A DNA stretch of 64,000 bases, from contig CP075364.1 in the NCBI GenBank assembly GCA_019454105.1, positions 933,362 to 997,361 of the forward strand, given 5' to 3'. The notes under the pieces are model-generated. The model was given only the letters and a program-made list of their open reading frames with translations, searched no databases and was not told where the DNA came from. Positions 57,022-59,353 of this stretch are shown here, piece by piece. This DNA comes from Fimbriimonadaceae bacterium (GTDB lineage: Bacteria; Armatimonadota; Fimbriimonadia; Fimbriimonadales; Fimbriimonadaceae). The number at the start of each line of letters is the position of its first letter. The stretch's first letter is position 1. The position numbers were made by a program, and so were the translations under genes.

Positions 57022-57486
57022 TTAGGGACTGGTCGGCTTGTTGCCGGGCTTGCCGCCTGGTTTGTTGCCTTGGCGACCCTGGCCGAAGCCTTGCTTCTTC
57101 ATCTCGGCTTGCATGAGGTCGCGGTATTGCTTGCTCTTCTCGGGCCCGAGGATCTTCTCAAGGCTCGTGCGGTAGTCCTGTTGCATTTTCCGCATCTCCT
57201 CGCGTCGGGCAGCGTCCCGGTTGTTGCCCTGGTTCTTGTCGCGGAGGGCCTTCATTTGGTCGGCGCGCTTCTTGTCCAGTGCCGCGATCTCTTGGTTCTG
57301 CTTCTGCGAAAGATTGAGCTTCTTGAGCACAGCTTGGTGGGTCGCCTCCATCTTCTTGGCCATCGCGGCCCGGTCGCCCTGGCCAGCGGCTCCGCCGCGC
57401 GGGCCGGCCCCCTGGGCGGGAGCGATCGCTGCCACGAGCATGGTGGCGCAGGCAAGGGAGGCAAGAACGGCGTTTCGTGCTTTCAT
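57022..57486 (-). CDS. Spy/CpxP-like periplasmic protein
   Basis: Exported protein of 154 residues. After a signal peptide (A-S-L-A-C-A-T-M-L-V-A-A) comes a helical core of Lys/Arg/Glu/Gln-rich segments (L-K-K-L-N-L-S-Q-K-Q-N-Q-E and L-D-K-K-R-A-D-Q-M) like the L-T-x-x-Q repeats of Spy. The end is a low-complexity Gly/Lys/Pro tail. Spy-like proteins act as chaperones or stress sensors in the periplasm. It starts with ATG 57486 and converges with kdsA after 3 bases. Confidence 0.72.
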   Translation of the reverse strand: MKARNAVLASLACATMLVAAIAPAQGAGPRGGAAGQGDRAAMAKKMEATHQAVLKKLNLSQKQNQEIAALDKKRADQMKALRDKNQGNNRDAARREEMRKMQQDYRTSLEKILGPEKSKQYRDLMQAEMKKQGFGQGRQGNKPGGKPGNKPTSP

Positions 57487-57533: not shown

Positions 57534-58289
57534 TCATAGTTCAATTGGGGTCCCGCCTGTCGCCAGGATCCGGGTTGAGCGCGCCTTTTCGACCAGTTCG
57601 CGGACTTCCGGACGCGTCGACTCGGTGAATTCGGTCGGCTTACCGAGAAAGACGATCTTCCCTGCATCAAGAAACGCGATCCGGTCGGCGACCCGCACCA
57701 CCGAGGTCAGATCATGGCTCACGACAAGACTCGTGGCCCCAGTCCGCTGGCGGGTCTGGACGATGAGTTGGTCGATCGCGTAGGCCGTCACTGGGTCGAG
57801 CCCACTGGTCGGTTCGTCATAGAGCAAGAGCCTCGGCTCGGTGGCCAAGGCCCGCGCCAGACCGACCCGCTTTCGCATGCCGCCGCTCAACTCGGCCGGA
57901 AGGAGCTTCTCAATGCCGGAGAGGCCGACCTCCTCCAAGAGCCGCTTCACCAATTCCCGGCCTTCGGCAGGCTTGATCGGTTTGCGTCGCCTGGCCCCGA
58001 AAAGGACGTTGTCCTCAACGGTCAGCGAGTCGAACAGGGCCGCGTACTGAAAGACCAGCCCAAGCTTCCCATGGGCCCTTTCGGGCTCCTTCTTGACACT
58101 GACCCCGTCGATCAACACGTCGCCTTCCGAGATCGGGAGCAATCCCGCCACGCACTTGAGGAGCGTGGTCTTTCCGCCCCCGCTGCTCCCCATGACGACC
58201 AGGATCTCGCCGTCCTCGATCGTGAGGTCGACCCCATCGAGCACCCATCGCTCGTCGTAACGTTGCCGAAGCCCCTGGATTTCGACCAT
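57534..58289 (-). CDS. mlaF: MlaF-type ABC transporter ATP-binding protein
   Basis: ATPase of 251 residues for an Mla-like phospholipid transporter. Walker A G-S-S-G-G-G-K-T-T, Q-loop F-Q-Y-A-A-L-F-D-S-L-T-V-E-D-N-V, signature L-S-G-G-M-R-K-R-V and Walker B L-L-L-Y-D-E-P-T-S-G-L-D fit MlaF/Mkl. Its permease (MlaE) and MCE-domain partner (MlaD) are not in the window. The ATG overlaps the stop of the acyl-ACP-reductase-like gene (TGATG), so the two are translationally coupled. Confidence 0.9.
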   Translation of the reverse strand: MVEIQGLRQRYDERWVLDGVDLTIEDGEILVVMGSSGGGKTTLLKCVAGLLPISEGDVLIDGVSVKKEPERAHGKLGLVFQYAALFDSLTVEDNVLFGARRRKPIKPAEGRELVKRLLEEVGLSGIEKLLPAELSGGMRKRVGLARALATEPRLLLYDEPTSGLDPVTAYAIDQLIVQTRQRTGATSLVVSHDLTSVVRVADRIAFLDAGKIVFLGKPTEFTESTRPEVRELVEKARSTRILATGGTPIEL

Positions 58290-59353
58290 CAGGCCGGGAC
58301 GAGCGACTCGCGGGCCGCCCGGGCCCGGTCAATGGCCTCTTGCGAGACCTCTTTCTCAAAACTTCTGAATCCGGCCAGCTCGAAGCCGTGCTTTTGGGCC
58401 CAGTCTTGGGTCGTGCGGACTTGATCCACGCCGACGTCCTTGCCCAAGGTGAACGATTCCACTCGATGCTCAAGGGCCAAGAGCATGGTCTCGCTCATAC
58501 AAGCGTAGGCCGTTCCGGGAGGAAAGCCAAAGTCGAATCCGAAGTCGACTGGCCCGGGGACTTTGACGACCCCTCCCTCGATCACGAGGACATCCGGCCG
58601 CTCTTCTGCCACCCTCACGCTCACGTCCCGGGGTCGGGCGACGTCGCACACGACCGCACCGGGTTTCAGGTGCCTCGGCTCCACAAGGGCCCCACCTGCC
58701 GAGGTGACGGTGACGACCGCGTCGGCTTCTTCCAGGACCGATAGGTCGGTCGTTGGGCGAGTTCGGGGAATCTCGCTCGAAATCGTCTCGGTGCGAGCCT
58801 GGTCGCGGCCGATCAGCCAGGTCGATCCGAACCGGTTCGCGAGGATTCGGGCGCACGTCTTGCCGATGCTGCCTGTGGCGCCGACCACGGCAAGGGTGCC
58901 TGAGCCGACGTCCACGCCCACCATTCGACACGCCTTCAACGTCCCTTCGATCGCAGTCGCCACCGTGTAGCTGTTGCCGGTCGTGACTTTGATCTTGAGC
59001 CGGCTCGCGACGGTCAACCCGCCATCGCCGACCACGCTCGTGAAGGCCCCGAGGCCCAGAATGTCCGCGCCTAGCTCCTCAGCCATCTGCCCACAGCGCA
59101 CGATCCGGTCGTAAACGTCCTCCAGAGGCATGGTCTGGGTCATCATGCGCGGGGTCATCGGACACCCGATGAACCATCCTTCAGTCTCGGCGCCTGTCAA
59201 AGAGACGATGCCGGTGATCTTGCTGACCACCTGGGGCTTGGTCAAGACCAAGAGCTTCTCGATGAGCCCTTCTGGCATCCAGCGCGCCCAAGAGTACTTC
59301 TTGGCGGCCTGCCTCGCAGTCAGAGGATGGATGACGAAGGCGAAGCGCGTCAC
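58289..59353 (-). CDS. Acyl-ACP reductase (cyanobacterial AAR)-like protein
   Basis: Product of 354 residues related to the cyanobacterial long-chain acyl-ACP reductase that makes fatty aldehydes. Shared marks are L-G-A-F-T-S-V-V-G, T-T-G-N-S-Y-T, the Rossmann motif A-V-V-G-A-T-G-S-I-G-K-T-C (about 154) and G-G-V-V-K-V-P-G. Cys285 in Y-A-C-M-S-E-T-M-L lines up with the catalytic Cys region F-A-C-F-A-E-A-M-L. The N-terminal part differs. GTG 59353 follows TAAAAT by 8 bases. No aldehyde-deformylating oxygenase is nearby. A different reductase substrate, or a role in membrane-lipid synthesis, is possible. Confidence 0.75.
   Translation of the reverse strand: MTRFAFVIHPLTARQAAKKYSWARWMPEGLIEKLLVLTKPQVVSKITGIVSLTGAETEGWFIGCPMTPRMMTQTMPLEDVYDRIVRCGQMAEELGADILGLGAFTSVVGDGGLTVASRLKIKVTTGNSYTVATAIEGTLKACRMVGVDVGSGTLAVVGATGSIGKTCARILANRFGSTWLIGRDQARTETISSEIPRTRPTTDLSVLEEADAVVTVTSAGGALVEPRHLKPGAVVCDVARPRDVSVRVAEERPDVLVIEGGVVKVPGPVDFGFDFGFPPGTAYACMSETMLLALEHRVESFTLGKDVGVDQVRTTQDWAQKHGFELAGFRSFEKEVSQEAIDRARAARESLVPA

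Follow-up and report, generated by a model that had tools for sequence, protein, structure and literature searches.

An acyl-ACP-reductase-like protein of Armatimonadota and C1, its recurrent genomic companion

AAR-type reductases have been described from pathways that make alkanes and natural products. The acyl-ACP reductase (AAR) of Synechococcus elongatus has a catalytic cysteine (C294) and a loop reading GATGDIG, binds the NADPH phosphate through R189, R193 and R314, and docks aldehyde-deformylating oxygenase (ADO) through R73, R79, K80 and Y247, as described in PMC7089970. PigE, of prodigiosin biosynthesis, joins an N-terminal thioester reductase domain (4PPM, NF053554) to a class III transaminase; Cys-based thioester reduction and passage of the aldehyde to the transaminase have both been proposed for it (PMC8341465). 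TamH (tambjamine) and KecF (koreenceine) also carry an AAR-type reductase domain, within fusions encoded in natural-product clusters: TamH with TamA makes a C12 aldehyde and amine in vitro and is NADH-specific (PMC9594044), and a transaminase-reductase activity is predicted for KecF (PMC6498172). The TAD domain of carmabin (9E4S/9E50) is NAD-bound and part of an assembly-line protein.

Here we describe an AAR-type reductase of Armatimonadota that is phylum-wide and mostly single-copy, and that comes without ADO or a biosynthetic cluster, a pattern which implies that the enzymatic conversion of acyl groups to aldehydes is part of general metabolism in these bacteria. Its constant companion, a protein of about 300 amino acids that we call C1, belongs to no Pfam or NCBIfam family, yet 192 of the 201 Armatimonadota genomes that we examined have it. 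A literature search joining 'Armatimonad' with 'acyl-ACP reductase' found no paper, and neither 'acyl-ACP reductase' nor 'thioester reductase' occurred among the matches listed in a search on thioester reductases in these taxa.

The reductase gene (Table 1) lies in the window, the whole 64,000-nucleotide stretch of Fimbriimonadaceae DNA that was analysed, and is present as a single copy in its genome. Its GTG start agrees with the homology start in relatives (query residues 1-354), and the protein stops at 354 amino acids with no fused class III transaminase; unlike PigE, TamH and KecF, it stands alone. By sequence its best match is the PigE N-terminal domain (NCBIfam NF053554, 2.8e-54, 184.8 bits over profile positions 47-354 of 837, under the curated cut-off of 850), followed by cyanobacterial AAR proper (TIGR04058, 1.2e-30, 107 bits, under the cut-off of 449.7); the same two proteins are matched in the PDB (4ppm at 4.4e-31, 6jzq at 4.0e-27). 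By structure, the AlphaFold2 model (pLDDT 91.5) is closest to AAR 6jzy, with TM 0.77/0.79 over 349 columns, and second closest to the carmabin TAD domain, at 16-18% identity. Likeness to cyanobacterial AAR (6JZQ/6JZU/6JZY) covers the whole-length fold, the loop, the catalytic Cys and the NADPH-phosphate residues, with the sequences about 25% identical across the aligned fold.

Table 1. Features of the reductase locus, in window coordinates
Feature	Position	Strand	Remarks
AAR-like acyl-thioester reductase gene	58289..59353	minus	GTG start, 354 aa, stop TGA 58289-58291; sequence, profile and fold matches
Catalytic Cys C285 codon (TGT)	58499..58501	minus	Corresponds to C294 of S. elongatus AAR
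Dinucleotide loop GATGSIG, G158-G164	58862..58882	minus	G158, G161 and G164 each 48/48 in alignment A2
TGATG, reductase stop overlapping mlaF-like start	58287..58291	minus	1-nt overlap (gap -1)
MlaF-like ABC ATPase gene, 251 aa	57534..58289	minus	ABC_tran (Pfam); likely cotranscribed with reductase here; lineage-specific neighbour
Small protein gene after mlaF	57022-57486	minus	Signal-peptide-like start; no Pfam or NCBIfam match

The original prediction had read the gene as AAR-like, with a Rossmann motif and a Cys, and comparison with characterised AARs bears this out. The superfamily Cys, at the start of a C-terminal helix, is C285 of the window reductase, in the context AYACMSETM; it is kept in 80/80 rows of the Armatimonadota set, in 18/18 intact rows from the phylum of Desulfotomaculum copahuensis (below, the second phylum) and in all 48 rows of alignment A2, its positions being matched to those of AAR through the PDB match. 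R183, R187 and K305 align with the NADPH-phosphate residues R189, R193 and R314; in A2, R183 is conserved in 46/48 rows, R187 is Arg or Lys in 45/48 and K305 is Lys or Arg in 48/48. The prediction had also named a quinate/shikimate-dehydrogenase-like reductase lacking the Cys as the outcome that would overturn it. We rejected that identity: the Pfam Shikimate_DH match is partial (30.9 bits, residues 152-250), covering the NAD-binding part without the N-terminal substrate domain, the PigE and AAR profiles are stronger, and Foldseek places quinate dehydrogenase at TM 0.33-0.35 against 0.77 for AAR. The gene product is thus an AAR/COG5322-type acyl-thioester reductase homologue, and its identity at superfamily level was rightly called.

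Reductase matches were present in 190 of the 201 sampled Armatimonadota genomes (137 of the 141 good ones). For C1 the count among good genomes was 139 of 141, and five Armatimonadota genomes lacked both. C1 was found by gene clustering in 80 loci as the protein directly upstream of the reductase; tblastn places it in 45 of the 80, and adjacency is not constant. Among the matches listed for Armatimonadota, which cover 150 of the 190 reductase genomes and 150 of the 192 C1 genomes, C1 lies on the same strand no more than 300 bp upstream of the reductase in 80/123 genomes and within 3 kb in 8 more, with a median gap of 47 bp. In the second phylum, C1 occurs in 117 of 149 genomes; among the matches listed there (87 standalone reductase rows from 86 genomes, fusions and matches that were weaker or partial being left out) the 300-bp arrangement holds in 75/86 genomes, with a median gap of 37 bp. 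All 86 of these genomes, each with a strong standalone reductase, have a C1 match, that of G221 being a contig-end fragment. In a tree of 52 rows whose long-branch rows are of unsure placement, the C1-linked reductases of both phyla form one clade (94/85), apart from the cyanobacterial, PigE and fusion rows. Of the 18 rows that bear the label Armatimonadota, 17 group together (100/99); the remaining one is L087, titled Bacillota. The family differs from cyanobacterial AAR in its link to C1 as well as in the lack of ADO.

In the window genome itself, where C1 follows directly on a RidA gene, 432 kb separate it from the reductase, which shows that the two need not share an operon. The two genes are still adjacent in 24 of 34 genomes of its own family, which marks the split as secondary. 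The RidA family gene (PF01042) is 5 bp upstream of C1 (L187, G000:C1:1417000-1433000), and a RidA neighbour recurs in 18/80 wider loci; such a neighbour is suggestive of imine chemistry, on which we do not build since only some of the loci show it. No C1 match was found in plasmids, and none of 140 pattern matches in viral contigs is a relative.

By sequence, C1 matches nothing in Pfam, NCBIfam or the PDB; 'quinate 5-dehydrogenase' is, we presume, in use as a product name for it. Scans of all 38 members of its alignment against Pfam and NCBIfam gave no family common to more than 3 of the 38, with a best E-value of 0.0097. Its predicted model (pLDDT 92.6) is two-domain and appears closest in fold to AAR. 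In VIA-align, AAR gives Z 14.2 (rmsd 4.4, 250 aligned, 9% identity) and the first nine ranks all go to AAR and TAD chains (Z 14.2 to 12.9), ahead of glutamate dehydrogenase at Z 10.3; carmabin TAD is again the second-best fold, at 7-9% identity. Foldseek alone places AAR 12th, after sugar-binding proteins, and hhalign profile-profile comparison found no homology between C1 and the reductase (probability 0.2% and 0.15%). This likeness, carried by predicted models with no signal at sequence level, we read as a possible sharing of fold.

The catalytic Cys and the glycine-rich loop are missing from C1, which has an invariant polar set of its own. Numbered as in the L069 protein, R33, D92, E101, R129, D147, Y184, D210 and N263 are identical in 83/83 orthologues, and K97 and D128 are each present in 82/83; most of these residues also hold in 13 paralogues. 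Matched by order of secondary structure, T262-N263 may correspond to the reductase Cys helix and D128-R129 to its glycine-rich loop. A polar site so strongly conserved speaks for C1 itself binding or converting something. The paralogues lie near varied genes without a common theme; for the divergent second-phylum paralogues L207-L218, recurring neighbours noted by eye are SfsA-like, UROD/MetE-like and PHP-type proteins.

Fusions of a class III transaminase to an AAR-type reductase, resembling TamH and KecF, were found in 22 of 149 second-phylum genomes (called from open-frame length and confirmed in 22/22). The transaminase comes first in 21 and the order is that of PigE in one; all 22 keep the Cys. 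Of the 117 genomes with C1, 96 have no fusion, and 75 of these have a strong standalone reductase; of the 21 that do carry a fusion, 2 have one (Fisher p 5e-9, uncorrected for kinship). Here the strong set of 77 genomes excludes split or weaker copies such as that of G289. In G313, C1 adjoins the fusion gene. Four of five divergent C1-linked reductases (L202, L203, L204 and L184) have Trp for Cys, and these Cys-less proteins fall within the C1-linked clade. A Cys-bearing fusion is encoded in the genomes of L202-L204 and in 16 others that have no intact standalone copy; the genome of L184 (G328) showed no fusion, and at L206 the C1-linked reductase keeps its Cys beside a fusion. Decayed reductase relatives occupy the C1-linked slot in L189-L191 and L224; n29 was read as a decayed reductase from a single profile comparison covering three sequences (E 0.00037, probability 36%). 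The occurrence of Cys-bearing fusions in genomes with lost or Cys-less copies suggests that reductase activity was replaced and is not dispensable. On the simplest reading, it is needed with C1 but may come from a fusion that hands the aldehyde to its transaminase. Three paralogous proteins of about 585 amino acids stand in tandem beside the fusion gene in L202, L203 and L204, an arrangement common to these three genomes.

Occurrence, linkage, residue conservation, predicted folds and secondary replacement by Cys-bearing fusions lead us to propose, with confidence evenly divided for and against, that reductase and C1 form a conserved module and act together, the reductase making an aldehyde that C1 receives, stabilises or converts. 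Catalysis, a physical complex, channelling, substrate and product are the inferred part of this proposal. By analogy with AAR, and from the conserved residues and predicted fold, the acyl group of acyl-ACP or acyl-CoA would move to C285 of a soluble reductase, NAD(P)H at the GATGSIG loop would give a hydride, and the aldehyde would be released. C1, as the ancestral and general partner of the reductase in place of Mla, would take up the reactive aldehyde and stabilise it or convert it further, as ADO does for AAR. The reductase fold and residues, the near-universal presence in Armatimonadota, the linkage in both phyla, the C1 match in each of the 86 second-phylum genomes, the gene order shared with some Armatimonadota, the single clade, the Cys kept in every fusion, the anticorrelation of fusion and standalone genes and the C1-fusion neighbourhood in G313 all favour this. 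On the other side stand the lack of homology between the two sequences, the Foldseek rank of AAR, the distant C1 of the window genome, the 31 of 117 C1-bearing genomes without a strong standalone reductase (16 of them have no fusion as well, so C1 can do without a reductase), and the Cys-less and decayed copies; the data indicate no substrate. Tentatively, and as something we would rather doubt than expect, the two proteins may each supply half of a core pathway to aldehydes that is as yet undescribed and may work as a channelling complex, retained by almost all Armatimonadota and by much of the second phylum, with C1 as a new enzyme family of AAR-like fold that bears an Asp/Lys/Glu/Arg site in place of the Cys/NADPH site; replacement by fusions would then hint at an amine end product.

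The two genes might instead be passengers of an ancient housekeeping string (coaX, dusB, greA, lysS), adjacent by position and separate in function, which we consider unlikely. The typical second-phylum order is coaX, dusB, a helix-turn-helix (HTH) protein, C1, reductase, greA, lysS; parts of the string recur in some Armatimonadota loci, which suggests descent from a common arrangement, and such a slot among housekeeping genes weakens guilt by association. The parting of the genes in the window lineage with the loss of neither, and C1 without the reductase in some genomes, fit the same explanation. Adjacency nevertheless persists in many Armatimonadota loci after the housekeeping neighbours have gone, C1 sits beside a transaminase-reductase fusion in G313, and no second-phylum genome with a strong standalone reductase is without a C1 match. 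The HTH protein is about 180 amino acids long and conserved towards its C-terminus; its gene separates dusB from C1 in L087 and in most loci of the second phylum (L167-L182 and others), and its Pfam and NCBIfam hits are no more than weak HTH ones.

Further from our preferred module of cooperating reductase and C1 is the idea that C1 is the functional core and its AAR-fold neighbour chiefly a structural or regulatory subunit whose reductase chemistry is dispensable. The Trp-for-Cys copies, the decayed genes in the slot and the retention of C1 where the reductase has gone speak for it. We still judge it improbable, given a Cys invariant in every intact row of both phyla and the Cys-bearing fusions that accompany three of the four Cys-less copies and the 16 genomes without an intact one.

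The original prediction had also drawn a link to Mla-type lipid transport from the TGATG overlap of the reductase stop with the start of an Mla-type ATPase gene. The overlap is as described. On its sequence, the ATPase can be called MlaF-like and no more: it scores 157.8 bits against the MlaF model PRK11831, whose cut-off is 441, and its full-length single-domain matches in the PDB include Mla ATPases and also other families. As a general rule the link fails and was rejected. An mlaF gene follows the reductase within 700 bp in 12/30 own-family loci and in 14/80 wider loci (77 of them with at least 600 bp downstream, and partly from the same genomes as the 30), often with overlapping or touching codons, against a reductase found in 190/201 genomes. 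The only MlaE found in the window genome, at 2,130,351-2,130,983, is some 1.1 Mb away from the reductase locus. With adjacency in a minority of loci and MlaE distant, the pairing is a lineage-level arrangement. That aldehyde feeds membrane lipids trafficked via Mla, with the mlaF coupling functional, seems to us quite improbable: overlapping or near-overlapping genes in those 12 loci and MlaE in 32/34 family genomes, the own genome included, fit it, but most relatives lack the mlaF neighbour. A search for plasmalogen genes, put forward with the same prediction, weakened the case for a PlsA-type supply in the window genome: PF09989, which we take to be a PlsA-type plasmalogen gene, is absent there and from four other family genomes examined, and is present in 26/61 sampled Armatimonadota genomes. 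Small proteins like the one encoded after mlaF in the window also come after mlaF in several relatives.

Fatty-aldehyde or alkane formation as in cyanobacteria is very improbable, even with the shared fold and catalytic residues and a tunnel end (Y23/Y26 of AAR) lined by hydrophobic or aromatic residues in most rows, since ADO (PF11266) was found in 0/101 Armatimonadota genomes with Synechococcus elongatus as positive control, the C1-linked reductases form a separate clade, and three of the four ADO-contact positions are changed (R73 to Pro in 46/48 rows, R79 variable and often acidic, Y247 to Arg in 48/48), K80 alone staying Lys or Arg in 45/48. Alkane synthesis is accordingly rejected, in agreement with the original remark that no ADO is nearby and that alkanes are not implied. 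Two records with phage names also hold AAR-type genes. The AAR-like reductase encoded by a faecal 'bacteriophage' record marked UNVERIFIED (MT835709.1, L233), with no C1 nearby, shares 40% identity with the reductase of the window, and a 1.5-kb record named cyanophage AS-1 contig_25 (DQ115832.1, L232) encodes an AAR-type protein.
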